A DNA stretch of 37,402 bases from a virus: positions 1 through 37,402 of IMG/VR virus record IMGVR_UViG_3300033148_007370; one strand, given 5' to 3'. Positions 54 to 35,592 of the stretch are shown piece by piece (positions within the stretch are counted from its first letter, which is position 1; each line of letters begins with the position of its first letter). The notes beneath the pieces are model-generated. The model was not told the DNA's origin. It did not search any database and saw only the letters and a list, made by a program, of their open reading frames with translations. The position numbers were made by a program, and so were the translations under genes.

Positions 54-557
54 ATGGCAGGCAGTAAAAAACTTCCTGTTCAGATGATAGCGTTTTCAAA
101 TAAATCTCATCGATCAAAAACTGATTTGAAAGCTAGGGCTGATACTGAAATTCAATTAGGTAGTAGGACGTTTGTTGTTCCTTTAACTGTCAAAAAAGAT
201 AAAGTAGCTCTTAAAAAATGGAAGTGGTTGATTGAACTATACGCTGGTTTTGACTTTATTACATCCGCTGATACTGATATCATGGAACAGTATTGTTTAT
301 CCTATTCTCAATACTGTGAAATGATTATTAGAAAAGAGCAGTTCGAAAAGCACCACAAAAAAGAAAAAACCCCACCTTGGGAAATCCCGGAGCTCTATGA
401 TAAAACTAAACTTGACCATAGCATAAATAAGAAGAGTGTGCTTTTGCAACAACTAGGGTCAAAACTTTATTTAGATTCTGTTATTAGAGTAAAGGCCATC
501 CCCATTCCAAAAAAAGAAGCACCACCAACAAAAGCTTCTAAGTTTAAGGGCATATGA
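54..557 (+). CDS. terS: Terminase small subunit (P27 family-like)
   Basis: This 167-residue protein sits directly upstream of, and overlaps by ATGA, the terminase large subunit gene. By position, size and composition it is the DNA-recognition subunit that binds the packaging site and loads the large subunit. The N-terminal half is basic and contains an alpha-helical stretch; the C-terminal tail is rich in Lys and Pro. I chose the ATG at 54 over a TTG at 51 because AGGA at 44-47 is better spaced for it. The family call rests mainly on synteny and general resemblance to P27-type small subunits. No intergenic promoter is obvious between the window start and the gene. Confidence 0.8.
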   Translation: MAGSKKLPVQMIAFSNKSHRSKTDLKARADTEIQLGSRTFVVPLTVKKDKVALKKWKWLIELYAGFDFITSADTDIMEQYCLSYSQYCEMIIRKEQFEKHHKKEKTPPWEIPELYDKTKLDHSINKKSVLLQQLGSKLYLDSVIRVKAIPIPKKEAPPTKASKFKGI

Positions 558-2338
558 AAAAGAAGAGCCACCCATATTTACAAAAGCTTGTAGATTACTC
601 TACTGATGTTATTAGTGGTAAAATAGTAGCGTGCCAAAAGAATATATGGAGTTGTGAGCGATTTCTTAACGACCTAAAACGATCCGAAAACAACGATCCT
701 ACTTTCCCCTATGAATTTATTCCAGAACAAGTAGAGTTGTTTGAAGATTGGTGTGCAATGTTTAAGCATACCAAAGGTCCATTGACAGGACAGTTTATTT
801 ATTTAGCTCCAGTAATTAGTTTTGTTGCTGGAAATATCTATGGATGGTATAATAAAAAAGATGGTTCAAGGAGGTTTAAAAAATCTTACTGGCAAGTTGC
901 GCGTAAAAATGCAAAAACACAACTCCACGCTCTTATTGGTTCATATGAGTTATTAGTATTTTCAAGAGATGAACAGGCTGAAGTATATGCCGCCGCAACA
1001 AAAGCAAAACAAGCTAAAATTACACTCAAAGAAACAATGACAATGTTAAGGCGGTGTGAAGATCTTGAGGAGGGAACTCAGTTTGCTATTAGATATGGAG
1101 AAATTGAACGAATAAGAACCGGCGGAATAATGGCCGCACTCACTCAAGATGATAAGAAAGATGGTGATGGTCTTAATCCTAGTTGTGGATTAATTGACGA
1201 ATACCATATGCACAAAACATCTGAGATGCTAGATATAATTACCAGTGGACAGACCGCCCGAGAAAATCCACTTGCATCAATAATTACAACTGCTGGGTTT
1301 GAGTTTAGTTACCCGTGTTACCGTGTTGAATATCCATTGATATCAAAAATTTTAGATCCTAATAATCCAATCAATATCGAAACATACTTTGTGATGGTTT
1401 GTGAACTCGAAATGAACACCTCTTCAGATACTATTGAGGTTGATGGAAGAAGTATTGCACCTGGTGAATTGATCGATGATATCAATGATGAATCTGTGTG
1501 GGTAAAAGCGAACCCAGTGCAGTGTTCATATCCTAAAGGCATCTCAAATACTCGTGATGATTTGGATCTAGCTAAAGCATCTCCCGAAAAAATGAAAAAT
1601 TTTCTCACAAAAAATATGAATGTGTGGGTTAACCAGCGTGAGTTTGGTTATATGGACATGGCAAAGTGGAGTTCTTGTGGTGTTTCATCTGATGAACTGA
1701 TTGAGCAAATAAAAGAGTATTGTGATGGGACTGTTTACATTGGTGGTGACCTATCAAAGCGAATTGACTTAACCTCTTTGGCGTTTGAGTTTGTCGGTAA
1801 CAATGATAAGTTTTACGTAATTCATCATTCGTTTATACCTGAAGCTATGTTTCACGAAAAAATAGCAGTGGATGGTGTCCCCTATGATCTTTGGGAGAAA
1901 CAAGGATATCTTACAGTTACCCAGGGAAATGTTGTAGATTATCGGGCGGTGAAAGATTGGGCTTTAGATTTTGCGAAAAAGAACGGTTGGGCAATAAATG
2001 AAGTTTGCCTTGATCCTCACGGAGCGGTTCAGCTTTCCGGTGATCTTATTGATGATGGTATTGAGGTTGTAGATATAAGGCAGGGGGCGTTGACCTTATC
2101 CGAACCAACTAAAGATATTAGGTATATGGTTTATAGTGGAAGGTTTGTTCACGGTAATGATCCAGTTTTAACTTGGGCTATGGGTAACGCTGTTACTAAG
2201 GTTTATCATAATGAGAGTATTTTATTGGATAAAGAAAAATCAACCGGTAGGATAGACCCAGCGGCGGCACTCATGAACTCTCATACAAGAGCTATGTATG
2301 TTGAGGCTAAACCTCAGAATAGAGTAATGTTTATCTAA
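554..2338 (+). CDS. terL: Terminase large subunit (ATPase/nuclease)
   Basis: The 594-residue protein has the layout of HK97-type large terminases, the motor that translocates DNA into proheads and cuts it. A Walker A-like RKNAKT motif lies near residues 117-122 and a Walker B LIDEYH near 213-218. The C-terminal nuclease domain shows GGDLSKRIDLTS (Asp399) and CLDPHG (Asp487), with a further Asp near 568. Length is normal for the family (about 550-600). The ATG overlaps the terS stop (ATGA). It ends tail-to-tail with, and overlaps by 8 bases, a minus-strand gene. That is unusual: portal normally follows directly. Confidence 0.95.
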   Translation: MKKKSHPYLQKLVDYSTDVISGKIVACQKNIWSCERFLNDLKRSENNDPTFPYEFIPEQVELFEDWCAMFKHTKGPLTGQFIYLAPVISFVAGNIYGWYNKKDGSRRFKKSYWQVARKNAKTQLHALIGSYELLVFSRDEQAEVYAAATKAKQAKITLKETMTMLRRCEDLEEGTQFAIRYGEIERIRTGGIMAALTQDDKKDGDGLNPSCGLIDEYHMHKTSEMLDIITSGQTARENPLASIITTAGFEFSYPCYRVEYPLISKILDPNNPINIETYFVMVCELEMNTSSDTIEVDGRSIAPGELIDDINDESVWVKANPVQCSYPKGISNTRDDLDLAKASPEKMKNFLTKNMNVWVNQREFGYMDMAKWSSCGVSSDELIEQIKEYCDGTVYIGGDLSKRIDLTSLAFEFVGNNDKFYVIHHSFIPEAMFHEKIAVDGVPYDLWEKQGYLTVTQGNVVDYRAVKDWALDFAKKNGWAINEVCLDPHGAVQLSGDLIDDGIEVVDIRQGALTLSEPTKDIRYMVYSGRFVHGNDPVLTWAMGNAVTKVYHNESILLDKEKSTGRIDPAAALMNSHTRAMYVEAKPQNRVMFI

Positions 2339-2519
2339 TACTCTCTTTCCATTTTTTCTGAGCTTCACGGATTAACTGATTAAATTTTTGATGACCGATG
2401 TCTTTTGGGTTATTGAACATTTTATATAGACCATCTTTTGTATATCCTACAAGATGCCCCGCAGCGGTTAGTGAAATTGTTAAACCTAATTCTTTTTTTG
2501 CGTGTTCAGATGCTTTCAA
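2331..2519 (-). CDS. Small hypothetical protein, 62 aa
   Basis: This is the most promoter-distal gene of the leftward block, convergent with terL and overlapping its stop. The 62-residue product is basic and helical. The segment LTAAGHLVGYTKDGLYKMF resembles a small helix-turn-helix, but no family is recognised. The start is a TTG at 2519 preceded by only a weak purine-rich stretch (AAAAGAGAA). It lies 27 nt downstream, on the minus strand, of an attC-like site, the position of a gene-cassette ORF, though no attC follows it. Its function is unknown. Confidence 0.55.
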   Translation of the reverse strand: MKASEHAKKELGLTISLTAAGHLVGYTKDGLYKMFNNPKDIGHQKFNQLIREAQKKWKESIR

Positions 2520-2546
2520 TAGTTCTCTTTTCTTTTAAAATTGTTA

Positions 2547-2593
2547 ATAACCAATATGTTGTCTAGCCTTGAGCGCAACACATCGGTTGTTAT
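2547..2593 (-). repeat. attC-like recombination site (short)
   Basis: Read on the minus strand, the site starts ATAACAACC and ends TTGGTTAT, 47 bp long. The outer arms pair (TAACAACCGATGTGTTG with the complement of CAACATATTGGTTA) with unpaired bases on one side, the architecture of an integron attC hairpin. The stop of a 20-codon ORF lies within its 5' core. The spacer is shorter than in the other sites and lacks the GAGGAACGAGG-type central motif. Confidence 0.7.
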
Positions 2594-2652
2594 TTAAAAT
2601 CTATCTGCATACCCATCATAAGATGAACCATACCATTCTGTAATTTTCTCAT
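2590..2652 (-). CDS. Mini-ORF, 20 aa, in a cassette-like unit
   Basis: An ATG at 2652 follows AGGAGTACAA, a good Shine-Dalgarno, and the frame runs 20 codons to a TAA within the next attC-like site. The peptide is Met-rich and matches nothing I recognise. The 29-nt leader is nearly identical to leaders before the genes at 30086 and 34341. It could be a truncated gene, a leader peptide, or the remnant of a cassette after internal deletion. Expression is uncertain. Confidence 0.35.
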   Translation of the reverse strand: MRKLQNGMVHLMMGMQIDFK

Positions 2653-2681
2653 TTGTACTCCTATTTAAGTTTGTAGAAGCC

Positions 2682-2740
2682 ATAACCAACTTGTGCAGTT
2701 GACTTCCTCGCCCCTCGTCGCAACCGACAAGTGGCGTTAT
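2682..2740 (-). repeat. attC-like recombination site
   Basis: On the minus strand this 59-bp element begins ATAACGCCACTTGT and ends CAAGTTGGTTAT. The two ends are imperfect inverted repeats with an extrahelical base in one arm. The centre contains GCGACGAGGGGCGAGG, matching the central motif of the plus-strand sites at 34254 and 34712. It lies 6 nt past the stop of the winged-helix gene. Confidence 0.8.
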
Positions 2741-2746
2741 CTGTGA

Positions 2747-3073
2747 TTAACTTTTTGACCATTTTTCCATTGCTTTATTTTCTCTAACTTCTGCTTCTTT
2801 GGCTATTAGATGTTTATCCCCTTTTTTAGTTGTGCAATATCCCCAATAAGGCGGTATATTTTCCATCTCACAAGGCTCACAATTTTGAGGAACAGCAACA
2901 CAAACCAACTTCACCAAACCATCTTCTTTAAGCTTTTTTACAGCTTTTCTTGTTTTATACACGCTCTCACAAATCATAGATGAAATATTTACAATATTAA
3001 TACACATTGTCCCATTCCAACAATAACCAGAATTAATAATCACTTTGAAACACTTTTCTTCTATCTCAGTCAT
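2747..3073 (-). CDS. Winged-helix-like DNA-binding protein
   Basis: The 108-residue protein looks like a small winged helix-turn-helix regulator: an N-terminal helix, a Cys-containing stretch, then SVYKTRKAVKKLKEDGLVKL, typical of a recognition helix plus wing start, then a C-terminal helical tail. The open frame begins at an ATG at 3088 inside the truncated attC, but the ATG at 3073 is more likely because AAGG lies at a workable distance. It is flanked by attC-like elements, so it is a cassette-type gene. Its target is unknown. Confidence 0.6.
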   Translation of the reverse strand: MTEIEEKCFKVIINSGYCWNGTMCINIVNISSMICESVYKTRKAVKKLKEDGLVKLVCVAVPQNCEPCEMENIPPYWGYCTTKKGDKHLIAKEAEVRENKAMEKWSKS

Positions 3074-3076
3074 ATC

Positions 3077-3101
3077 ATAACCTTTCATATTGGTGTGTTA
3101 T
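3077..3101 (-). repeat. Internally deleted attC-like site
   Basis: Only 25 bp remain: on the minus strand ATAACACACCAATATGAAAG then GTTAT. Compared with the intact site at 30410, both ends match, with TAACAC at one side and ACCAATA-GAAAGGTTATG at the other. The intervening ~33 bp are missing, joined at a short CAC identity. The hairpin needed by an integron integrase would not form, so this site is probably inactive. Confidence 0.6.
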
Positions 3102-3382
3102 AGTTCTATATTTTCTGGAAATAGCGAAAGCACAGAAAGATTAATATCAGCCAGCACCTCTTTAATTTCATCTAAACATATAGGTGCAAGTTCAACATAT
3201 TTGTAATTACAGTCAGGGATACTCGCATTATTCTTTGAAGCGGTGTTAAGATCCCAATGTATTCTCTCTCTGAATGCCTAGCAACGTCAGGCCCCTTCCA
3301 AATACTCCTCAGCAGACTCTATTGAAGAAGTTAATTGTCTTGCTATCCCTCTAAGCATTATTGCAGTTTGTTCATTAGTCAT
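3098..3382 (-). pseudogene. Decayed cassette gene with two in-frame stops
   Basis: From an ATG at 3382, preceded by AAAGGATAGAAA, a 95-codon frame runs to a TAA inside the deleted attC. It is interrupted by TGA at 3287-3289 (codon 32) and TAG at 3278-3280 (codon 35). Both sides of the break look coding: EGA-stop-RC-stop-AFRERIHWDLN, with TGG to TGA and CAG to TAG the simplest origins. If the first stop is respected the product is only 31 aa. The full-length product has no recognised family. Sequencing error is possible but two stops four codons apart favour real decay. Confidence 0.65.
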
Positions 3383-3406
3383 TTTCTATCCTTTCAAAAT
3401 TGTGGC

Positions 3407-3468
3407 ATAACCGTGCGTGTTGGTGATGACTTCATTCGTTCCTCATTCGCCCACCATTTAGGTGTTAT
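3407..3468 (-). repeat. attC-like recombination site
   Basis: This 62-bp minus-strand element starts ATAACACCTAAATGGTG and ends CATCACCAACACGCACGGTTAT. ATGGTG pairs with CACCA-type bases near the 3' end, and the centre holds GAATGAGGAACGAATG, like the plus-strand sites. The TAA of the 53-aa gene upstream lies inside its 5' core. Confidence 0.8.
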
Positions 3469-3626
3469 CTAGGTGTTGCCACCATTATCATTTTTCTCGG
3501 ATGTAATGATATTGTACACCGTGATTCAATCATATCTAAAACTTTTCTTTGATGTGGTAGAATCTCCCGAATATCACCTGTCTCATAATCTCTTATAAAA
3601 TCAACTAGATTATTTTTTTTATTCAT
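3465..3626 (-). CDS. Small hypothetical protein, 53 aa
   Basis: The frame runs from ATG at 3626 to a TAA at 3465 within the attC-like site. The start overlaps the stop region of the preceding 131-aa gene and follows TTTTGGGAGGGAAA, a strong Shine-Dalgarno, so it is translated as part of the leftward operon. The product is charged and amphipathic (VDFIRDYETGDIREILPH) with a Lys/Arg-rich C-terminus. No family is recognised. It is the last operon gene before the attC sites begin. Confidence 0.6.
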   Translation of the reverse strand: MNKKNNLVDFIRDYETGDIREILPHQRKVLDMIESRCTISLHPRKMIMVATPR

Positions 3627-4018
3627 TTTCCCTCCCAAAATGGTTTTTTATTCTCACCAAAAGTTCCACCAACTTCAAAATTAGCTTTTGCAATGTCAAA
3701 ATCTTTAACACTTTTTGCAATGATTTCTCTTAATTTATCCTCATCAATATCACACGTCATATTGATATTTACAGAAGAGATTTCAGTTTCGATCGCCTTT
3801 GTGTTTTCTCCTCCTAAAATTGCTATAATTTCATTTGCGCACGCCACATTAAGGGCTAGAATTGCAACCGCTTTTACTTGTTTCGGAATATCAAGTTTAC
3901 CAACATGTATTTGATAGTATAAATATTTCATAGAAGTTCCTTTAACAGAACCAGCCTTTTGAGCTTCGAAGAATCTTTTCATATCTTCTTCGGAGTATAT
4001 TGTTTCATCGTTATTCAT
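3623..4018 (-). CDS. Hypothetical protein, 131 aa
   Basis: It overlaps the gene upstream by 8 bases, so the pair is translationally coupled. The product has an acidic N-terminus (SEEDMKRFFEAQKAG), a central small-residue helix VKAVAILALNVACANEIIAIL, and a C-terminal alpha/beta-like region ending FGENKKPFWEGK. The hydrophobic stretch is short and more likely a buried helix than a membrane anchor. No motif identifies a function. It belongs to the leftward accessory operon inserted between terL and portal. Confidence 0.7.
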   Translation of the reverse strand: MNNDETIYSEEDMKRFFEAQKAGSVKGTSMKYLYYQIHVGKLDIPKQVKAVAILALNVACANEIIAILGGENTKAIETEISSVNINMTCDIDEDKLREIIAKSVKDFDIAKANFEVGGTFGENKKPFWEGK

Positions 4019-4657: not shown

Positions 4658-4842
4658 TACTCATCACCCCTATCTAAAACCTTTTCACAATAACCACATC
4701 TAAAAATATCGGCGTTAATTTCTTGTTTCCACGGCTTAACAATCTGTGAATTTCTGTCCTTATAAGCAGAGAAATTAACGTCCTCTTCTGTCTTTAGAAT
4801 GTAAACACAACCGCATTGACATGTAATCGGCTTTTTTGCCAT
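4657..4842 (-). CDS. Small zinc-ribbon-like protein, 61 aa
   Basis: This is the first gene of the leftward operon. Two knuckles are visible, CQCGC near the N-terminus and CGYCEK near the C-terminus, the arrangement of a small zinc ribbon. The ATG at 4842 is preceded by GGAGG at ideal distance. A promoter with TTGCAT and TATATT boxes spaced by 17 nt lies just upstream. No specific family is recognised; nucleic-acid or protein binding is plausible. Confidence 0.7.
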   Translation of the reverse strand: MAKKPITCQCGCVYILKTEEDVNFSAYKDRNSQIVKPWKQEINADIFRCGYCEKVLDRGDE

Positions 4843-4876
4843 CTTATGACCTCCAATAAATTAAACAATTTCCTTT

Positions 4877-4905
4877 AATATATTCAAAAAACAAATACAA
4901 TGCAA
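4877..4905 (-). promoter_or_regulatory. Sigma70-type promoter of the leftward operon
   Basis: On the minus strand TTGCAT (4905-4900) is separated by exactly 17 nt from TATATT (4882-4877). It points into the zinc-ribbon gene, whose start is about 35 nt downstream of the -10 box. Nearly the same boxes with 17-nt spacing occur at 28216-28244. Confidence 0.65.
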
Positions 4906-5004
4906 CCAAAACCGCAAAAAAACAAATATTACTCTTCATATTTATTATATTGAAAAAATAGAACCATCAAAAAAGAGGCTCTCTGAGTTTAAAAAGGTGA
5001 AAAG

Positions 5005-24577: not shown

Positions 24578-25608
24578 TGGCTAATATAGTTGTAATTGAT
24601 ACGCTTGCTGATGCGGGTGGTGTGGGAGTGCTAGATTGTGATGGGATTGATGATCAGGTTAGTTTTGGAATTATAGCTGATTTAGAGTCGTGTAGTTGGG
24701 AGGGTGTGATTGCTGGAGGGGTTAATACAGGGTATATATTAGGAGTTAATCTAGGGGCCAGATTTGAAGTGAACGGTGCAAACATAACATTCTTGGGGAG
24801 CATAGATGGTACAACTTGGGATTCGTCATTTTCTTTTAGTTCCCCTCTTATACCCGATGGGTACAACTCTGTCAGCGTTACAAATGACGGTGTTAATGTT
24901 ACCGTAAACATTAATGGCAATACTCATGTAGCTCCGTATTTAGGGTTTTGGGCTTGTCCCGAATCTTTCAATGTAGCAAGGAGAGAGGCAAGAAGCGACA
25001 GACTTGAATGTATAATGTACAGTCTTGTCATAAATAGCTGTGATTACCACATTAGTAGTTCATTTGGTGACACATCATTAACCTCTAGCGGTTGTAATAG
25101 CGGAACGATAAGCGGTGCAACATGGAACAAAGTAATAAACGGTCAACCAGTAGATGAAGTATTCGCAAGTCAAGCAGTCTACAAGGGCACTTGGGGAGCT
25201 AGCCCGATACCTCCTCAGATAGTTTATGATACAGTTGGAACTTTGCCTCCAACTGGGGATGCATCTTGGGATGGTGAGGATGTTACGGTGGTCGATGTTA
25301 GCAAAAAAAGTATATTATATTTATTAAAATTTTTATTAGGAGAAGCTATTATGTTAGATGTAAATGGTTCAATTCGCGGTGAAACTCTTCCTGCTAGTGG
25401 AAAACACACCCTTCCTACCGATGTAGGATATTTTAAGTATCTAAAAGCGTTAAGTGCCGGTACTATTGTGGCAAGATTACGAGACAATAAGCATTTTTCT
25501 ACAATAAATGTTTTATCTGATGGGGCTTGGTACCCCACTGCACCTATTTTTGAAATTGATATGACCGCATCAACTGTAAATTTTGATGATGTTGAAATAG
25601 GATACTAA
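24577..25608 (+). CDS. Lectin-like (LamG-type) tail/adhesin protein, 343 aa
   Basis: The N-terminal ~160 residues look like a concanavalin/LamG-type jelly roll (GIDDQVSFGIIADLESCSWE, IPDGYNSVSVTNDGVNVTVN). A linker and a second beta-rich domain with RGETLPASGKHTLPTD follow. It probably binds host or glycan surfaces. The frame stops at TAA 25606-25608 but continues open for 43 codons to TAG 25740. The stop could be a true end, a recent nonsense change, or a site of programmed read-through. Confidence 0.65.
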   Translation: MANIVVIDTLADAGGVGVLDCDGIDDQVSFGIIADLESCSWEGVIAGGVNTGYILGVNLGARFEVNGANITFLGSIDGTTWDSSFSFSSPLIPDGYNSVSVTNDGVNVTVNINGNTHVAPYLGFWACPESFNVARREARSDRLECIMYSLVINSCDYHISSSFGDTSLTSSGCNSGTISGATWNKVINGQPVDEVFASQAVYKGTWGASPIPPQIVYDTVGTLPPTGDASWDGEDVTVVDVSKKSILYLLKFLLGEAIMLDVNGSIRGETLPASGKHTLPTDVGYFKYLKALSAGTIVARLRDNKHFSTINVLSDGAWYPTAPIFEIDMTASTVNFDDVEIGY

Positions 25609-28250: not shown

Positions 28251-28397
28251 GCAAGTGGATAGTTACCGTTTGTTTTTTGAAATTGGTCATACAAAAATTC
28301 TCAAGCCCCTTTTGGTTATGAAGAATGCACACACGATTATGACCCGTGTAGGTGGTAACCCACCAATAGCATTCTATTAAACTTAAGGGGCTTTTTT
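28251..28397 (+). ncRNA. Candidate structured non-coding RNA with terminator
   Basis: No ORF of note lies here. Nested helices are seen. P1: AAGCCCCTT (28303-28311) with AAGGGGCTT (28385-28393). P2: AGAATGC (28322-28328) with GCATTCT (28369-28375). P3: ACACG (28331-28335) with CGTGT (28345-28349). P4: GGTGG (28351-28355) with CCACC (28360-28364). P3 and P4 sit side by side inside P2. P1 is followed by TTTTTTC and would act as the terminator. It could be a small RNA or a 5' regulatory element of the gene at 28417. Confidence 0.6.
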
Positions 28398-28416
28398 CGT
28401 TTAAGGTGGTAAAATT

Positions 28417-28959
28417 ATGTCAGGTAATTACAAGTTTTTACAGGATAGACTAGAAGAAGGTTCGGGGTTCATTGAAAAGTTTACAATGCTTGCTCTTGAA
28501 GAAGTAAGGTGCTTTCAAAGTGATTCAGTTTCTGAGTTTATGGAAGAGTTTTTTGATCGTACACCAAAACAGCTTTGTGATATTTTAAATTTTAAAAAAG
28601 AAAAAGAGGTTTATGCGAGAATTGAAGGGTGCTACGTAGATTGTGGCAAGAGAGAAGGCCATTCAGAACTTCTTGGGTTTATTATTAGAGCTGCTGGTAT
28701 GGATGGTTTTTTGGCTGAAATTAGAACCCCTCGCAGACAAAATTTTAGATTTAAAGATGATGGTACTTACAGCTCTTGTGAATTATTAACTGGATGGCAG
28801 CAAATTGATTGGATTTATGCAGAAACATATTCTGAATTAGTAGAAAAAACAATCATCACCACCAATAAAAACGTTGAAGATATGAGAACCAAAGAGTTTG
28901 AAGAGCTGTTTGGTGGGTTGAGAGTAAAATCAGATAAAGAATCTAGCCATGACTCCTAA
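28417..28959 (+). CDS. Hypothetical protein, 180 aa
   Basis: ATG 28417 follows AAGGTGG. The product is mixed helical and beta with several Trp and Cys, including CYVDCGKREGHSELLGFIIR and TGWQQIDWIYAETYSELV. No known motif is seen. It directly follows the structured RNA and overlaps the next gene by 11 bases, so the pair is coupled. It precedes the first attC-like site, so it is probably native phage cargo rather than a cassette. Confidence 0.6.
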   Translation: MSGNYKFLQDRLEEGSGFIEKFTMLALEEVRCFQSDSVSEFMEEFFDRTPKQLCDILNFKKEKEVYARIEGCYVDCGKREGHSELLGFIIRAAGMDGFLAEIRTPRRQNFRFKDDGTYSSCELLTGWQQIDWIYAETYSELVEKTIITTNKNVEDMRTKEFEELFGGLRVKSDKESSHDS

Positions 28960-29489: not shown

Positions 29490-29642
29490 ATGGATTGGGT
29501 ATCATTAATTATTCTTGGTGCGATTGGATTAGCTGCAATATCTGTAATGTTAATAATTGCTAAAGATGATAAAAAAATTGAAGATGAAAAGTTATATCAT
29601 GAAATTTTAGAAAAACATTACGGAGAAATTAATAATTATTAG
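29490..29642 (+). CDS. Small membrane protein, 50 aa
   Basis: ATG 29490 lies one base past the preceding stop region and the TAG abuts the first plus-strand attC-like site. The N-terminal half is a membrane helix (WVSLIILGAIGLAAISVMLI); the C-terminal half is charged. No family is recognised. It lacks an independent ribosome site and may depend on coupling. Its end at the attC 5' core could make it the last native gene before the array or a cassette gene. Confidence 0.55.
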   Translation: MDWVSLIILGAIGLAAISVMLIIAKDDKKIEDEKLYHEILEKHYGEINNY

Positions 29643-29691
29643 TAATGCCGAAATGGTGGGCGCGTAGCGTCATCACCAATTGATCGGTTAT
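29643..29691 (+). repeat. attC-like recombination site (variant 5' core)
   Basis: This 49-bp site reads TAATGCCGAAATGGTG at the 5' side, with TAAT where others have TAAC, and ends ATCACCAATTGATCGGTTAT. The inner arms (ATGGTG and CACCAAT) pair as in the site at 30410. The centre is a short GGCGCGTAGCGTC. The changed 5' core may mark the edge of the array. Confidence 0.7.
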
Positions 29692-29713
29692 AGCCTTTTC
29701 AGAAAGAACAATA

Positions 29714-30004
29714 ATGTCAGAATTAGATTTATATAAATTTATCCAAGATAAAAATGTAGAATACCATTGGTACAGAAACGAAAAAGATGAAAGTAAGAGG
29801 ACACCTTATCTTTTTGTAATGTTTGACGACCTAAAAGAGTTTACAAAACTGCTTGGTTTTATCTTTTTTGAAGAAGGGCACGAAACAATAATTAAACAAG
29901 ATTATGTATGTTTTGATGGTGACGAGATATGTGAGTACTTTGGATTGGAAACTAGCAAGGTTCTGCCCGATGTAGACGAAAGTGGAATTCGATTTAATCG
30001 CTAA
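29714..30004 (+). CDS. Cassette-type hypothetical protein, 96 aa
   Basis: A 22-nt leader with CAGAAAGAACAATA links the preceding attC to the ATG, and the TAA falls at the 5' core of the next attC, the classic cassette layout. The product is acidic and helical/beta (DLYKFIQDKNVEYHWYRNEK), with no known motif. Its leader is nearly identical to that of the gene at 30798. Function is unknown. Confidence 0.7.
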   Translation: MSELDLYKFIQDKNVEYHWYRNEKDESKRTPYLFVMFDDLKEFTKLLGFIFFEEGHETIIKQDYVCFDGDEICEYFGLETSKVLPDVDESGIRFNR

Positions 30005-30056
30005 TAACCCTTGCGTCGATTGCCGACGCAAGAGGTCAACCGAACGCCCTTGTTAT
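30004..30056 (+). repeat. attC-like recombination site
   Basis: 53 bp from ATAACCCTTGCGTCGATTG to CAACCGAACGCCCTTGTTAT. Outer and inner arms pair (TGCGTCGATTG against the complement of CAACCGAACGC) with an unpaired base in one arm. The centre is CCGACGCAAGAGGT. Confidence 0.75.
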
Positions 30057-30085
30057 GGCGTTCACAAACTTAAATAGGAGTACAA

Positions 30086-30382
30086 ATGTTAGAAAAAATG
30101 ATTGAGCTTAAAAATGAAAACCCAAATCACGAAGTCCATTTTCTAGTTGACAACGATTTGTTTGATATTGATTATTCTTGGACACACGGAATAATTAAAG
30201 ATGTTCAAATTGGAGTTTGGTTGAAATTAGAGAGTGGTACTATTTTGACAACGATTGACCAAATTGAAGAGTGGTTTGATGAGAACGATACAAAATATTC
30301 AGAGTATTACGATGATATTAAGCCAGAGCTTGAAGAAATGAAATCAAATGCAAAACCTGCAATATTGGTTACTATAAATTAA
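30086..30382 (+). CDS. Cassette-type hypothetical protein, 98 aa
   Basis: ATG 30086 lies 29 nt after the attC and behind AATAGGAGTACAA, a leader shared with cassettes at 2652 and 34341. The product is acidic (IEEWFDENDTKYSEYYDDIK) and appears to be a single small alpha/beta domain. A short GTGCA/TGCAC hairpin lies between its stop and the next attC, so the 27-nt gap is unusual. Function is unknown. Confidence 0.7.
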   Translation: MLEKMIELKNENPNHEVHFLVDNDLFDIDYSWTHGIIKDVQIGVWLKLESGTILTTIDQIEEWFDENDTKYSEYYDDIKPELEEMKSNAKPAILVTIN

Positions 30383-30409
30383 CAAAGTGCAATAAATGCA
30401 CATTCTTAT

Positions 30410-30467
30410 ATAACACCGCTATGGTGTGTTGTAGCGTAGCGGAAATCATCACCAATAGAAAGGTTAT
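30410..30467 (+). repeat. attC-like recombination site
   Basis: 58 bp from ATAACACCGCTATGGTGTG to ATCACCAATAGAAAGGTTAT. TATGGTG pairs with CACCAATA leaving one extra base, as in integron attC L boxes. The centre is TTGTAGCGTAGCGGAA. It serves as the intact reference for the deleted site at 3077. Confidence 0.8.
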
Positions 30468-30472
30468 GAAAA

Positions 30473-30715
30473 ATGTGGACAAGAATAAAAGCAGGTAATA
30501 TGTCAAAACTCCAAGTTGGAACTTACGTTTTGACTTTGGATTTTGAATCGCTGAAATTTAATGGTATTGACAGCCACGTATGCTTTGAAAACAAAGACAA
30601 AGAGCAGGCTTGGTGTTTACCAAAAGAAGAAGTGATAAGTATTAAAACAGTAGACTTTGAAAAATACTGCGACAAAGGCGATAGAATAGAAATTCCGTGG
30701 CCTAAAATATACTAA
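30473..30715 (+). CDS. Cassette-type hypothetical protein, 80 aa
   Basis: The frame starts five bases past the attC at ATG 30473, using AAAGG inside the attC as ribosome site; ATG 30500 after GCAGGTAAT is an alternative giving 71 residues. The stop lies at the next attC core. The product is beta-rich with SHVCFENKDKEQAWCLPKEE. No family is recognised. Use of part of attC as a ribosome site would be a notable arrangement. Confidence 0.65.
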   Translation: MWTRIKAGNMSKLQVGTYVLTLDFESLKFNGIDSHVCFENKDKEQAWCLPKEEVISIKTVDFEKYCDKGDRIEIPWPKIY

Positions 30716-30775
30716 TAACAGCCTACGTCGTGTGCGACGACGAAGGAGGAAGACATCACGAACGTGAACGGTTAT
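30715..30775 (+). repeat. attC-like recombination site
   Basis: 61 bp from ATAACAGCCTACGTCGTGTG to CATCACGAACGTGAACGGTTAT. ACGTCGTGTG pairs with the complement of CATCACGAACGT, with an extra base. The centre is CGACGACGAAGGAGGAAGA, close to the common GAGGAACGAGG motif. Confidence 0.8.
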
Positions 30776-30797
30776 AACCTTTTCAGAAAGAACAACA

Positions 30798-30992
30798 ATG
30801 GTTGATAGAAAATATGTTCAAGAACACTATGATGGAACTGGCGGAAATATGATTGACACCGCAAACCATATTTATGAATTAGGAGATGTTGCCTATGACA
30901 AAAGCGAAGATGAAACGCTATTTGTAATTTGGTTTGATTGGGGTGTTGCGGTGTTGAGTTCGGGCGGAATTGAATTTGTAGAGAGAAAGTAG
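30798..30992 (+). CDS. Cassette-type hypothetical protein, 64 aa
   Basis: The 22-nt leader (CAGAAAGAACAACA) matches that of 29714 at nearly every base. The product is acidic with YVQEHYDGTGGNMIDTANHI and a beta-rich Trp-containing end (TLFVIWFDWGVAVL). It ends five bases before the next gene with AGGAAG between them, so this unit carries two genes. Function is unknown. Confidence 0.65.
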   Translation: MVDRKYVQEHYDGTGGNMIDTANHIYELGDVAYDKSEDETLFVIWFDWGVAVLSSGGIEFVERK

Positions 30993-30997
30993 GAAGT

Positions 30998-31180
30998 ATG
31001 TATCTGTATATTTTAGAAGATGGAACAATCCTCAAAAACTTTTGTGAACCAACCGAAAGCGATATTGAGAGTTGTGATGAAGGTGTATTGTCAATTATAA
31101 AAATTGAAGATGGTTCATCGTTCCCGCAAGAATATCAAAATGGTGAATGGGTTGATATTGAGCAGTACTTTGAAGATTAA
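30998..31180 (+). CDS. Small acidic hypothetical protein, 60 aa
   Basis: ATG 30998 follows AGTAGGAAGT. The product is strongly acidic (EPTESDIESCDEGVLSIIKI) with no known motif. Only a half attC (GGTTATGAC) follows, suggesting that a once complete site was lost when two cassettes fused. Function is unknown. Confidence 0.6.
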   Translation: MYLYILEDGTILKNFCEPTESDIESCDEGVLSIIKIEDGSSFPQEYQNGEWVDIEQYFED

Positions 31181-31187
31181 GGTTATG
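31181..31187 (+). repeat. Residual attC 3' core
   Basis: GGTTATG directly follows the TAA of the 60-aa gene. It has the 3' core seen in every attC of the array but no 5' core or central motif within reach. The next gene starts four bases later. Confidence 0.4.
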
Positions 31188-31191
31188 ACTT

Positions 31192-31500
31192 ATGGAAGAG
31201 TCAATCGGATTAAAGATATTAAAATATCGTAGACTAAAAAGCATTGACCAAAAAACACTTGCTGAACAGTGTGGAATTTGTCAAGCTATGATTTCAAACT
31301 ACGAAAGAGGAAAACGAAAACCATCTTCAAAGAATTTGAGAAAGATTGCAAAAGTCCTTGGTGAAGAGGTTGCAGTGTTTAATGTTTATGAGAATTTATT
31401 AATATCTCAAATTATAGAAAATACTGAATCAATGTCTGATGAAGAGTTGAAAGAACTAAAAGAGTTTTCAGACTTCATCAATTGGAAAAGAACTAGGTAA
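31192..31500 (+). CDS. XRE-family (Cro/cI-type) regulator, 102 aa
   Basis: Residues ~8-62 form a canonical helix-turn-helix of the Xre/cI family: LKYRRLKSIDQKTLAEQCGI followed by QAMISNYERGKRKPSSKNLR. The C-terminal 40 residues are acidic and helical, perhaps for dimerisation. The stop lies inside the following attC, so it is a cassette gene. It could regulate phage genes or be an antitoxin-like cargo regulator; no toxin partner is recognised beside it. Confidence 0.8.
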   Translation: MEESIGLKILKYRRLKSIDQKTLAEQCGICQAMISNYERGKRKPSSKNLRKIAKVLGEEVAVFNVYENLLISQIIENTESMSDEELKELKEFSDFINWKRTR

Positions 31501-31559
31501 CACGCCTTATGGCGTGCAAATGAGGAGCGAATGTAGTCATCACCAATAAGCACGGTTAT
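31497..31559 (+). repeat. attC-like recombination site
   Basis: 63 bp beginning GGTAACACGCCTTATGGCGTG and ending ATCACCAATAAGCACGGTTAT. GTAAC replaces ATAAC at the 5' core. TTATGGCGTG pairs with the complement of CACCAATAAG-type bases. The centre is CAAATGAGGAGCGAATG, close to that of 3407. Confidence 0.78.
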
Positions 31560-31581
31560 AACTCAAATAGAAAGAACGAAA

Positions 31582-32103
31582 ATGGAAATCAAAAAATCAG
31601 ATGTAGTAGAAAAATATGAAATTACAGGAGCTAAAAACCTTGATCGAATTTTCGTTTTTACGGAAGATTTCGCAGAGAGACAAGGCCAAATAACAATGCG
31701 TTGTTGGGGGACTTGCTGGACGGCATATTGGGGCGGTATTGGAAGTAGACCTGTTAAAGAGTTCTTTTTGAGTTGTAATAATGGTTACTTAGCAGACAAT
31801 TTTGTTAGAGACTCTGGAGTTGAAAGAGATGTTTTAGACTATGATAAAATTATTGATGACATCAAAAGTGAGGCTTGTAAGAGGCGTAGAGATGAAGAGC
31901 TTGACAAAGAGAAGGCTCGCGAGTTTTTTGACAATGCTGATGATATAGAAGAAGGCTGTGAGATATGGCAACACTGCGAAGCTCTTGAAATGGCTTATGG
32001 TGATGATTACGCCTATGATCTTCCTAAAAGATATAGCACGGAGTTTAATTACTTGATGAGAGTTATACAGGCTGTTAGAGAAGCCTTCGAAATGGAAAAG
32101 TAA
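31582..32103 (+). CDS. Cassette-borne conserved hypothetical protein, 173 aa
   Basis: The 22-nt leader contains AATAGAAAGAACGAAA, as in other cassettes. The N-terminal 85 residues (GAKNLDRIFVFTEDFAERQG, then MRCWGTCWTAYWGGIGSRPV and FFLSCNNGYLADNF) closely recall a conserved protein common in enterobacterial prophages and plasmids. The C-terminal half is helical with DEELDKEKAREFFDNADDIE. No attC follows, so the cassette is open at its 3' end. Function is unknown. Confidence 0.75.
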   Translation: MEIKKSDVVEKYEITGAKNLDRIFVFTEDFAERQGQITMRCWGTCWTAYWGGIGSRPVKEFFLSCNNGYLADNFVRDSGVERDVLDYDKIIDDIKSEACKRRRDEELDKEKAREFFDNADDIEEGCEIWQHCEALEMAYGDDYAYDLPKRYSTEFNYLMRVIQAVREAFEMEK

Positions 32104-32228
32104 ATCATTGCTGTATAAATCCCCTCAATTACAATTTTATTTTAAAATACACAACAAATACACACGCTCTACATATAAAAGGTTTATATTATCTTTACGG
32201 TAGTAATAATTGAACTAGGTAGGATAAA
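32104..32228 (+). other. Intergenic region before the integrase module
   Basis: 125 bp without a gene. TATATT at 32185-32190 is a candidate -10 box without a good -35; TTTACGG follows. AGGTAGGA precedes the next ATG. The absence of an attC at this array edge is notable. Confidence 0.4.
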
Positions 32229-32408
32229 ATGAGCAATAAAAAGCGCGTCAATCTTAATTTGCCTAAAGTATTGGTAGATAAAATTGATGAAGCTATTGGT
32301 AATAGCGGTGGGGTAATACAAAACAGAACCCACTTTATTTTACTAGCTTCTTCTGAGAAGTTAAAGAATATTAGCAAGCCATTGGCGGGGGTTGAATATG
32401 GTGTCTGA
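32229..32408 (+). CDS. Ribbon-helix-helix DNA-binding protein, 59 aa
   Basis: ATG 32229 follows GGTAGGATAAA; the TGA at 32406-32408 overlaps the next gene. The N-terminus RVNLNLPKVLVDKIDEAIGN has the beta-strand plus helix pattern of Arc/MetJ-type proteins, followed by NRTHFILLASSEKL as the second helix. It is short for a regulator but complete for an RHH fold. It lies before the integrase and may control it. Confidence 0.7.
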   Translation: MSNKKRVNLNLPKVLVDKIDEAIGNSGGVIQNRTHFILLASSEKLKNISKPLAGVEYGV

Positions 32409-32619
32409 ATTAGCAACCATGAGTTGTGTTTACTGTAGGAGCGATGCCCGTTTTTTAAGAGTTGACACAAAGAAGTTTCCTAGGTTAGAAGAGGACGAAA
32501 TTATTGAAGTTAATATTTATAAGTGTAAGGATAAATCTTGCAAAAGATTAAATTGGAGATTCACAAAATTTGATAGTAACGATGTTTCACATGAAACATC
32601 TAAAAAGATTAAAAAGTAA
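32392..32619 (+). CDS. Zinc-ribbon-like protein, 75 aa
   Basis: It overlaps the RHH gene by 17 bases, with GGCGGGGG as ribosome site. CVYC near the N-terminus and CKDKSCKRLNW about 35 residues later form a plausible zinc ribbon; the C-terminus is basic. No family is recognised; a nucleic-acid-binding role is likely from composition. Confidence 0.65.
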   Translation: MNMVSELATMSCVYCRSDARFLRVDTKKFPRLEEDEIIEVNIYKCKDKSCKRLNWRFTKFDSNDVSHETSKKIKK

Positions 32620-32630
32620 GGCGGGTTATT

Positions 32631-32957
32631 ATGCGCGAAGAGAAATTCTATGATGTTGTGCACGAGGTTGAACGGTTATTTGATAGGCTCAAAGATGATG
32701 TAACTGTTGATGTGATCGAGAATAGTTCTCACAGTATAATTATTAAGAAGTTTGGTGGCTATACTTATTCTCAAACTAGATACAATAATAGTAAAAAGTT
32801 TAGAAATAATTTTAAGCTGTGTGATACTATAATACTGGAGATTGTTGTAGAGTATGGCATTATTGACTCGTTTAAGTTCGATGCAGGACTATTCAAGGAA
32901 ATGAAAGCGTTTGTCGCAAAATATGAAAGTAAGAAAGAATTGCAAAATGGTAATTAG
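32631..32957 (+). CDS. Hypothetical protein before integrase, 108 aa
   Basis: ATG 32631 follows AAGGCGGG and the 3' end overlaps the integrase start. The product is helical and charged (VVHEVERLFDRLKDDVTVDV) with a central beta segment (HSIIIKKFGGYTYSQTRYNN). No family is recognised. Close coupling with the integrase suggests a role in recombination or its control. Confidence 0.6.
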   Translation: MREEKFYDVVHEVERLFDRLKDDVTVDVIENSSHSIIIKKFGGYTYSQTRYNNSKKFRNNFKLCDTIILEIVVEYGIIDSFKFDAGLFKEMKAFVAKYESKKELQNGN

Positions 32958-34080
32958 GCTAAATAAAAACGGTCAATGGTACGTCTCTTTTACTCTTCCA
33001 GATAAAAATAGAAAGAGGGTAACTTTCCCCAAGGGAACATTAAAAAGGGACGCTATTTCTTTCGTTAATGAAAATATGAAGCTCGATAAAGCTTCTATTT
33101 CTGTAAATATGAAAAAGAATTTTGATAATCTTAAGTTTGCGGAGATAGCTAATTTATACATTGGCTATCTATCTAAAACTGATGCTTCAGATAATGTTTC
33201 ATATGTTAATAAAACTATTGAGTATTGGAAAGATTGTAAAATCTCAGATATTACTCCAGCTCTTTTGAGCGATTGGATTGAGTCTCTTTTTGTAGATGAG
33301 AAGAATTACGCTGTTGCTACTGTTGAAAAATACTTAGCATATTTCAAGACGGTTTTTAATTATGCTGTAAAAAAAGAAATTATAACTCATAATCCTGTTT
33401 CAAAAGTTGAGTTTACAAAGGAGTTTAAAAAGAAAACTAAGAGAAATTTTGTCATATCAAGAGATGAGTTTAAGAATCTCAACTCTCTATTTAGTACTTC
33501 TAAACCTCAGATAAAAGACGTCCTAACTGCTCTTTGGCATAGTGGAATGAGGATCAATGAGGTTCTAAATCTAAAATGGCATAGCGTTCAAATGGGTAGA
33601 GGTGTTATAATCCTCAATCCTAGCGAGGTTAAGGAAAAAAAGACTAGGTATATCGTCTTAGAAAAAGAGTTTATTGAAGTTTTAAATAGGTTAAGACTCG
33701 GTAATAATGGTGAGTATGTGTTCTGTTTTAATGGTGTCTATAAAATTAGCTATCAAGTATGGCGTAGCAGGTGGTTGAAAAATACAAAATCAACTGATTT
33801 TGGGAGTATGACAACACACGATCTACGGCATTGCTGGGCTACTATCAGATATCAAGAAGGGTGGACAAAAGAAGAGATAAAGCTACAGTTGGGGCATACA
33901 ACTGAATCAATGTTTGTTACTTATAATACTACAGGAATCCAAGATCTCCAAAAAGCCGCAGGTTTTCTTTCTGAAAAAAGAGATGTCATTGATGATGATG
34001 TTCGAGCGCTAATGAAGAAGGTAAAAGATAGAGACGTCCCAATAGGAACTCTTCAAGCTTCAATTCGAGATTTTAGGTAG
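32947..34080 (+). CDS. int: Phage tyrosine integrase
   Basis: The 377-residue protein has an N-terminal arm-binding-type beta region (RLNKNGQWYVSFTLPDKNRK), a SAM-like core-binding domain (~50-160) and the catalytic domain. Catalytic residues are visible: Arg201 in HSGMRINEVL, a Lys near 231 in VKEKKTRY, His291 and Arg294 in HDLRH, His317 in LGHT and Tyr326 in VTYNTTG. It is lambda/P4-like and does not show the extra patch of integron integrases. The start is uncertain: ATG 32923 and 32947 both lack a strong ribosome site. Confidence 0.9.
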   Translation: MVIRLNKNGQWYVSFTLPDKNRKRVTFPKGTLKRDAISFVNENMKLDKASISVNMKKNFDNLKFAEIANLYIGYLSKTDASDNVSYVNKTIEYWKDCKISDITPALLSDWIESLFVDEKNYAVATVEKYLAYFKTVFNYAVKKEIITHNPVSKVEFTKEFKKKTKRNFVISRDEFKNLNSLFSTSKPQIKDVLTALWHSGMRINEVLNLKWHSVQMGRGVIILNPSEVKEKKTRYIVLEKEFIEVLNRLRLGNNGEYVFCFNGVYKISYQVWRSRWLKNTKSTDFGSMTTHDLRHCWATIRYQEGWTKEEIKLQLGHTTESMFVTYNTTGIQDLQKAAGFLSEKRDVIDDDVRALMKKVKDRDVPIGTLQASIRDFR

Positions 34081-34253
34081 TTAGTTTTTTTATTTGCCTA
34101 AAAGTGGGGTTAAAATATTGGGCATTTTTGGGCATTTGAAAAGAGTTGATTAAGGATTGGTGTTAGTATGTTACTAGTGATTGTAGTTGTATTTAAAAGG
34201 GTTTATAATCCTTTATTGGTATTAGAAGAAAATAACGGTTTAGGTGGTGAATT
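34081..34253 (+). other. Non-coding region downstream of int, attP candidate
   Basis: No gene is seen. GGGCATTTTTGGGCATTT (direct repeat, 34119-34136) and AAAGGGTTTATAATCCTTTA (imperfect inverted repeat around TTATAA, 34196-34215) are the sort of arm and core elements expected at a phage attachment site beside int. The first attC of the second array begins at its right end. Confidence 0.4.
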
Positions 34254-34311
34254 ATAACACCTGCGTGAATTGCGACGAGGAACGAGGAAGTCAAATCAAC
34301 GCATTGGTTAT
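34254..34311 (+). repeat. attC-like recombination site without upstream ORF
   Basis: 58 bp from ATAACACCTGCGTGAATTG to CAAATCAACGCATTGGTTAT; TGCGTGAATTG pairs with the complement of CAAATCAACGCA. The centre is CGACGAGGAACGAGGAAGT. Unlike most other sites it does not follow a cassette ORF; the nearest upstream gene is int, 173 nt away. Confidence 0.8.
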
Positions 34312-34340
34312 GACTTCTACAAACTTAAATAGGAGTATAA

Positions 34341-34715
34341 GTGAGTAAGTAAAAGATTTTATCAGCTCTAAAAAATAAAGGGCTTGAAGTTAAAGATTTG
34401 GAATACCAAAGAAGTGTTCCAACTCCATCGGGATTTGCACAAGGTTGGGATATTGTTCTAACTGAGAAAAGCCAAGATTTATTATTAGCTTGTGGAACCG
34501 ATTTCAGTAGTTTGCAGAATTGTTGCGACACAACTAAAGATGTTCTTAAAGAGATAGAGGCTTTCCCAAATATTAATGAAGATGCAAAGAGAGTTGTATT
34601 GGAAATGTGGGATTGTATTCACGAATTTAATACTGAATTAATCAAAAGTGGTGATCAGACCTCAGTTGATAAAATTTCTGAGAAGTTTCCTTTGTGGACT
34701 TCAAAATACATATAA
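34341..34715 (+). pseudogene. Cassette gene with early nonsense codon
   Basis: A GTG at 34341 lies behind AATAGGAGTATAA, 29 nt after the attC, at the expected start position. Codon 4 is TAA (34350-34352), after which the frame is open to the next attC and encodes KILSALKNKGLEVKDLEYQR and so on. The simplest history is ATG to GTG and CAA to TAA. Internal starts (ATT 34356, TTG 34398) could still yield a shorter protein of about 105 residues. No family is recognised. Confidence 0.6.
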
Positions 34716-34771
34716 CGCACCAGTGGGGTGCAACGAGGAACGAGGCAGTCATCCCCAACGGGATTGGTTAT
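34712..34771 (+). repeat. attC-like recombination site
   Basis: 60 bp from ATAACGCACCAGTGGGGTG to CATCCCCAACGGGATTGGTTAT. GTGGGGTG pairs with the complement of CATCCCCAACG-type bases. The centre CAACGAGGAACGAGGCAG is the clearest copy of the common motif. The TAA of the preceding frame lies inside the 5' core. Confidence 0.82.
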
Positions 34772-34792
34772 GCTCGAATAGAAAGAGCTAAG

Positions 34793-35122
34793 ATGGAATG
34801 TGGTATGGATATTAATACAGATCCCGATTCAACGAAAGTTGCTTTGTGTTTTGAGAATGAAATTTACATTGGTGAAGATCTTGATTCACTTATTGAAGAA
34901 GTTCGAGAAGCCACAGGGTATGACATAGAAACTATCGCAAGTATGTTGCAAAGAACAGTACAATCTTTTGAAACTCTTGGAGAGGCAACTTCTACACTAG
35001 AAAAATCTATGATTGAATTTAAGAGACTCGTGACTGAAGGAGATGTTTATCTTCCAAATACCAATTTGGATACAAACCACTTCTTTGACCCAAAGCGCAG
35101 TAAGAAACGGAAACAGTGGTAA
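34793..35122 (+). CDS. Cassette-type hypothetical protein, 109 aa
   Basis: ATG 34793 lies 21 nt after the attC behind AATAGAAAGAGCTAAG; the frame is open upstream through the attC, but that part is not coding. The product is acidic and helical (EDLDSLIEEVREATGYDIET, SMLQRTVQSFETLGEATSTL) with a basic C-terminus (PKRSKKRKQW). No family is recognised. It ends 13 bases before the next attC. Confidence 0.65.
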   Translation: MECGMDINTDPDSTKVALCFENEIYIGEDLDSLIEEVREATGYDIETIASMLQRTVQSFETLGEATSTLEKSMIEFKRLVTEGDVYLPNTNLDTNHFFDPKRSKKRKQW

Positions 35123-35135
35123 ATTGAATCACTAA

Positions 35136-35193
35136 ATAACAACCAGATCGAGAGCGAGCCTTAAGGCGAAGGCTCTTGAATATGTCTGGTTAT
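35136..35193 (+). repeat. attC-like recombination site
   Basis: 58 bp from ATAACAACCAGATCGAGAGC to GCTCTTGAATATGTCTGGTTAT. The ends pair well (CCAGA with TCTGG, GAGAGC with GCTCTT) with unpaired bases on one side. The centre GAGCCTTAAGGCGAAG differs from the common motif. The site is followed by an 18-nt leader. Confidence 0.75.
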
Positions 35194-35211
35194 GACTTTT
35201 AGGAGGTCAGA

Positions 35212-35592
35212 ATGAAAACATTATTAATATTAATCTGACTGCTAATCACCGGATGTGCAGAGGGAAGATCTTTTATCGAAGGATCTGACGCGGTGGTAAA
35301 TAAAACAGTACACTTTCAGAAGTGTTTCTTTCCCGTTAGTTTGGTTATAGAAAGAGGGAAACACCATATAGAGGCAACGGCAGGGGATACAATTAATGTT
35401 CCTGATGCAAATATGAAATATATTAACTTGGTAGATGGCGAATGGAGCGGTGGCTTGGTTGAAATTGTCATGGGTTACGACTCTTCGACAGTTGTTGATA
35501 CCATAAAAGACCTCGCTGATAGTGAGTACTTAACTGATACTGTTTTGGTTCAAGTTTATCATGCTGGCATTTACACAGTCAGTGTTAAATAA
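35212..35592 (+). pseudogene. Lipoprotein-like cassette gene with nonsense codon in its signal peptide
   Basis: ATG 35212 follows AGGAGGTCAGA. Without the stop the N-terminus is a textbook lipoprotein signal: MKTLLILI, stop, LLITGCAEG, with lipobox LITGC. The interrupting codon is TGA (35236-35238), codon 9. The rest of the frame encodes a beta-rich ~100-residue domain (VHFQKCFFPVSLVIERGKHH). TGG to TGA is the simplest change. A GTG at 35293 could start a version lacking the signal. The product would have been an outer-membrane or periplasmic lipoprotein. Confidence 0.65.

Follow-up and report, generated by a model that had tools for sequence, protein, structure and literature searches.

Does the genome of a tailed phage carry genuine integron gene cassettes, and by what route could they have entered it? 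The question is raised by the window analysed here, the entire IMG/VR virus record IMGVR_UViG_3300033148_007370 (37,402 bases). HK97-type packaging and tail genes are present, and the window is a tailed siphophage-type genome from an uncultivated virus of bacteria. An initial annotation described eight plus-strand attC-type elements in it as a single integrase-less cassette array.

We built a covariance model (R1) from 39 aligned sites of five other viral contigs (G001-G005), with the window excluded and the attC structure assigned by hand. Exact patterns taken from the window sites and leaders were used to reach other viral contigs. In the window, R1 finds 11 full attC sites at about E≤4e-4 as well as a truncated one, and nothing else up to E 1. 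All eight plus-strand elements are recovered by this held-out model (E 4.8e-11 to 1.2e-4). R1 also matches sites on the minus strand, and there are therefore three arrays, not one: the plus-strand set comprises arrays B and C, and array A lies on the minus strand.

2542-3470, minus strand: array A, three sites and one truncated, between terL and portal
2542-2595, minus strand: terminal attC of array A (R1 28.8 bits, E 4e-4), R' being GTTATTA, not GTTATRR
2677-2742, minus strand: attC of array A (R1 43.2 bits, E 2e-7)
3072-3103, minus strand: truncated attC of array A (R1 19.1 bits, E 0.059), left half and centre deleted
3402-3470, minus strand: attC of array A (R1 51.9 bits, E 2.5e-9)
29640-31564, plus strand: array B, five sites
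29640-29696, plus strand: attC 1, array B, GTAAT ... GGTTATAG (R1 36.5 bits, E 7e-6)
30002-30061, plus strand: attC 2, array B (R1 38.6 bits, E 2e-6)
30408-30472, plus strand: attC 3, array B (R1 59.5 bits, E 5e-11)
30713-30780, plus strand: attC 4, array B (R1 50.6 bits, E 5e-9)
31495-31564, plus strand: attC 5, array B (R1 31.1 bits, E 1e-4)
34252-35198, plus strand: array C, three sites
34252-34316, plus strand: attC 6, first of array C (R1 57.7 bits, E 1e-10)
34710-34776, plus strand: attC 7, array C (R1 56.0 bits, E 3e-10)
35134-35198, plus strand: attC 8, last of array C (R1 32.4 bits, E 6e-5)

The sites share one order of elements: R'' (ATAAC, GTAAC or GTAAT), spacer, left arm, variable centre, right arm, spacer and R' (GTTAT). 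The right arm contains one extra base, mostly A. The RYYYAAC-like R'' and GTTRRRY-like R' cores of integron attCs, in which AAC and GTT are conserved, are recognised, with GTTAT in every full window site, and R' reads GTTATRR in most sites. The motifs originally assigned to the plus-strand elements hold to different degrees. The 5' core ATAAC is found in six of the eight, with GTAAC at 31495, as described, and GTAAT at 29640. The 3' core GGTTAT is present in seven, the site at 30002 having TGTTAT, and the GAGGAACGAGG centre occurs in two of the eight only. In the truncated site, R'' is fused to the right arm and R', and the right half matches an intact site of G003 (3890-3955). Site attC 7 has a near-identical counterpart in G002 (L030 2014-2077).

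The evidence for the attC hairpin is covariation. In the 39-site alignment, 84.8% of the arm cells are paired, compared to at most 55% once the partner is slid, and 51 double-change cells are observed versus 16.8 in shuffles. The covarying helices 13-16/75-78 and 17-20/62-65 flank one unpaired column, which is the arm pairing of attC sites; in the same alignment, pairing in the outer L helix extends to only 60% of cells. A model-free test agrees: within the window, arms pair better with their own partner than with the arm of another site, a result equalled in 0 of 2000 shuffles, the test being partial in that several sites were missed by the arm parser. A hairpin scan returned 10 window candidates (score ≥9), whereas 100 Markov-generated sequences averaged 1.07 and never exceeded 4, and the larger array-bearing contigs resemble the window. 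Folding the bottom strand had been proposed as a check. The unconstrained minimum-energy fold is mostly another hairpin than that of attC, because the left arm pairs with the variable centre too; it is the covariation of the arms that speaks for the attC structure.

It could be argued that these elements are phage intergenic stem-loops, either terminators or regulatory hairpins, that merely resemble attC. Several left arms form a local hairpin with the centre, and attC sites are considered weak terminators (PMC9892861). However, the conserved ATAAC/GTTAT cores and the bulged, covarying right arm are not features of terminators, nor are the stops inside R'', the shared leaders after G|TT and the recurrence across unrelated packaging genes, which are described below. 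This reading is already disfavoured, and we consider it highly improbable.

R1 is specific for its type. It detects no Vibrio or Shewanella integron attCs and does not match the experimentally tested phage attCs of Qi et al. (PMC9892861). A second model (R2), small and equally type-bound, was made from 10 Vibrio/Shewanella integron attCs and matched no site in the window. Its best two matches in the sister contigs, at E about 0.35, both fall exactly on R1 sites.

The phage genes that border the arrays are the following.

554-2338, plus strand: terminase large subunit (TerL), 42-49% identity to Geobacillus/Bacillus phage TerL; array A starts just past terL
2331-2519, minus strand: phage gene directly after array A, with a G005 homologue of 55% identity
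31582-32103, plus strand: phage protein phrog_3451, directly after attC 5 and ahead of the integrase module
32911-34080, plus strand: phage tyrosine integrase, not IntI (phrog_1, E 2e-53), between arrays B and C

The term 'integrase-less' is accurate for intI, as neither the window nor ten further contigs contain an intI above the TIGR02249 cut-off. It does not extend to the phage tyrosine integrase at 32911-34080, which separates the plus-strand clusters. This enzyme reaches 31.4 bits on TIGR02249, with a cut-off of 265, which places it outside the IntI family. No attI was recognised in the window either, and a complete integron is therefore not present there. With at least two attCs close together and no integron integrase nearby, the arrays are, by their sequence architecture, CALINs.

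The phage's own tyrosine integrase might nevertheless move the cassettes, which would make the locus a phage-borne relative of the integron, and integrase genes do lie beside arrays in the window phage and in contigs G002 and G007. However, G005 carries a 12-site array and has no PF00589 match, other array contigs, some of them fragments, also lack such a gene, and the window enzyme falls far short on the IntI model. We regard this explanation as improbable.

Array-free counterparts of these borders exist. The G005 homologue of the gene at 2331-2519 has no adjoining attC (no R1 match in L105), and R1 finds no attC between terL and portal in G005. In the TerL relatives L155 and L165, terL directly abuts portal, and no R1 site was found in twelve TerL relatives. 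The R1 search of the window shows no attC between the phrog_3451 gene and the integrase; homologues of phrog_3451 occur in many enterobacterial, Pseudomonas and Vibrio phages. Scans for close relatives using the ORF at 28949 and the integrase found none. A terminator-like hairpin followed by TTTTTTCG stands upstream of the array in both G005 (reversed, 24720-24871) and L030 (about 1240-1350), and the window stretch at 28273-28419 is ~75% identical to that of G005. An Rfam scan of the window gave no match.

The intervals between the sites have the geometry of gene cassettes. In the window and the ten further contigs, 90 sites bound 71 cassettes, with an inter-site median of 358 nt. The cassette ORF has a median length of 99 aa and fills 94% of the interval. 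The stop codon overlaps R''/the 5' end of the site in 42 of the 71 cassettes and is at most 30 nt away from it in 63, in agreement with the original description of small ORFs with stops in or next to the 5' core; in 30 cassettes it is the TAA within aTAAc. The pattern is that of a single small ORF for each attC, in the same orientation, with its stop at or in the site. Leaders following G|TT recur among cassettes, for example TTTTCAGAAAGAAC. The window contains these cassette genes.

2747-3088, minus strand: cassette ORF of array A, 113 aa
29714-30004, plus strand: cassette ORF, 96 aa (phrog_37287, function not known)
30086-30382, plus strand: cassette ORF, 98 aa, no known function
30473-30715, plus strand: cassette ORF, 80 aa, stop at the 5' end of attC 4
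30798-31180, plus strand: two small ORFs (64 and 60 aa) after attC 4
31192-31500, plus strand: HTH_3 regulator, 102 aa (PF01381, E 2e-13), final ORF ahead of attC 5
34398-34715, plus strand: cassette ORF, 105 aa from TTG; the GTG frame upstream is broken by TAA
34793-35122, plus strand: cassette ORF, 109 aa, 89% identity to G002 cassette 4673-4999

The frame after attC 6 is interrupted at about 34342 (GTG AGT AAG TAA), and a lipoprotein-like ORF after attC 8 (35213-35592) has an in-frame TGA as its ninth codon. These breaks are due to either decay or sequencing error. Most of the 68 cassette proteins searched against Pfam have no match. The recognised cargo includes three DNA methyltransferases and Lar-like restriction alleviation proteins, as well as an HTH protein, an ASCH domain and a DUF5131 protein. 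One cassette of G007 (34372-34941, L144 14372-14941, minus strand) encodes a radical-SAM-like protein with a CSHDCSYCYM motif, an unusual cargo.

The same attC type is found in ten further IMG/VR contigs; the 11 contigs together have 2 to 14 sites each at E≤0.001 and up to three arrays per phage. This number of carriers is a lower bound and biased to the attC type of the window, because arrays were sought by attC sequence patterns. One contig, L098, was rejected as a carrier, being a chance pattern match in an unrelated phage. The carriers have at least three unrelated packaging gene types: TerL of phrog_2 (G004, G006 and G008), TerL of phrog_15 (G007 and G009) and that of the window. Unrelated phages therefore bear the same attC type. 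As the same kind of cluster occurs with mostly different genes in at least ten other contigs, it seems that phages have repeatedly tapped a single bacterial pool of mobile genes. The proposal of integron-type attC arrays without intI in a tailed phage is thus upheld by R1, the compensatory arm changes, the cassette geometry and the ten further contigs. The claim that such arrays are rare needs qualification, given at least 11 viral contigs with this attC type and the phage CALINs published in 2023 (PMC9892861).

All of these contigs are metagenomic, and chimeric assemblies or misclassified host integrons could produce arrays next to phage genes. The ends of G008 (L146 1-230 and the end of L147) share a 230-nt overlap that differs only in the attC centre and right arm. 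The two flanking cassettes are the same and the attC between them occurs as two alleles, a sign of population heterogeneity or misassembly. The arrays are, however, located within colinear phage genomes from independent metagenomes and share their contigs with terminase and portal genes, and an artefact of this kind has a very slight probability.

Variation of arrays between related phages, another of the suggested checks, is observed. G005 is the closer, colinear relative of the window phage: identity is 59% for TerL and reaches 86% in tail proteins. An array of 12 sites occupies the homologous position in G005, following the replication genes, and none of its cassettes is found in the window. 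G002, a further relative (tail proteins 44-66%, integrase 36%), carries an array of 12 sites next to its integrase, plus two more sites, and the orientation relative to the tail genes is opposite to that in the window. The cassette at 34793-35122 adjoins different attC sites in G002 than in the window. Overall, five pairs of cassettes are shared between contigs, at 33% to 89% identity. A 34-nt identity between the window (35187) and G005, considered as a conserved array boundary, was dropped, since it is a shared cassette leader before non-homologous ORFs.

The array ends carry a distinct sequence. GTTATTA is found at 7 of 19 array ends versus 0 of 71 internal sites (Fisher p 7e-6), where R' is GTTATG or GTTATA. 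In integron insertion, crossover takes place between G and TT of R', and the last attC of an inserted array therefore retains the right half of the target. This crossover point has been shown for phage attCs (PMC9892861). The GTTATTA ends suggest the footprint that cassettes entering the phage genome at a G|TT target would be expected to leave. Not every one of the seven ends is an independent case, as G005 (L104 1806-1862) and G007 (L144 11648-11706), which are unrelated phages, share a near-identical terminal element on the minus strand, ending in GTTATTATAGGGTATAGAA. The feature could thus partly reflect common descent of a terminal element. In G001, an inverted pair, CTGCTGTTATTATAG ... 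CTATAATAACAGCAG, is observed. Cassette insertion outside integrons, at attG sites, is attributed to Loot et al. 2024 in PMC12444791, PMC12901181 and PMC11389934. As these papers cite it, attG insertion would share with the window a target that is neither attI nor attC, which predicts a terminal attC with a target-derived R' half; it was shown in bacterial genomes, whereas in the phage genomes described here the footprint is what we see.

The window most likely contains three CALIN-like clusters whose cassettes were inserted by a host integron integrase acting in trans, and the arrays have probably been reshuffled since. Cassettes would enter by attC-specific recombination at G|TT points of the phage genome. 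The catalyst would be the integron integrase of the bacterial host. Arrays could later gain, lose and exchange cassettes as phages encounter the cassette pool of the host. What is seen directly is the attC and cassette organisation, the differences in array position and content between related phages, the sharing of cassettes and the array-end footprint; we infer the host integron, its integrase and ongoing recombination.

It is possible that the arrays are instead fossils of a few past captures from host integrons, now passed between phages only by vertical inheritance and ordinary homologous recombination, without any integrase acting on them. The lack of intI in every contig would fit such a history, as would signs of decay (the truncated attC at 3072-3103 and the broken frames in array C) and the near-identical terminal element common to G005 and G007. 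Against this, the window phage, G002 and G005 are related yet have almost no cassettes in common, the positions and orientations of their arrays differ with respect to the tail genes, and most sites have kept their pairing arms and core. We therefore consider such fossil arrays rather unlikely and favour insertion by a host integrase in trans with later reshuffling.

A search of 84,980 genomes with two exact patterns gave nothing but one chance match, in GC-rich coding sequence, and R1 had no match in 189 genomes of one unrelated phylum. The terminase of G007 (70% to a Shewanella phage) had offered a guess at the host, which was not backed by attC sites in that phage. In the genomes scanned, we found no host, attI, intI or integron with the attC type of the window.

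The recurring and changing arrays, with their methyltransferase and Lar-like genes, suggest that integron recombination may also arm phages. Recent work cited in PMC12444791 has demonstrated that integron cassettes of bacteria include anti-phage defence genes. We tentatively propose that a guild of phages infecting one host clade might use integrase-less arrays as plug-in loci, with cassettes swapped by the host integrase in trans. If so, cassettes including methyltransferases and anti-restriction genes would pass between unrelated phages and the integron of the host, and the integron would be an exchange for counter-defence as well as defence genes. The recurrence of the arrays provides a concrete set of genomes for testing the action of a host integrase on phage DNA.

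Several known systems resemble these arrays. Sedentary chromosomal integrons have similar single-ORF cassettes mostly without known function, similar attCs within an array and shared leaders, while the arrays here have neither intI nor attI and reside in phage genomes. Vibrio anguillarum phage p16 and Shewanella phage M16-3 (MK672802, MZ568829) also have attC arrays in phage genomes, and their sites show the R''-L''-bulge-L'-R' order and a GTTATG-type R'. Unlike the window, they contain intI and represent segments of host integrons that have been identified, and the Vibrio sites measure about 126 nt versus 54-70 nt here.

The closest counterparts are the phage CALINs of Qi et al. 2023 (PMC9892861), who reported 17 CALINs in 10,705 genomes and found that IntI1 could recombine five of the six phage attCs they tested with attI1. 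Both sets consist of attC clusters with small ORFs and no intI, and both include DNA methyltransferase cassettes. The published CALINs are illustrated with few attCs each, whereas here a single type extends over 11 contigs, with contents that differ among relatives. Phage CALINs as such are thus already known; what is new is the recurrence of one attC type in several lineages, the turnover of the arrays between relatives, the presence of up to three arrays per phage and the footprint at the array ends.
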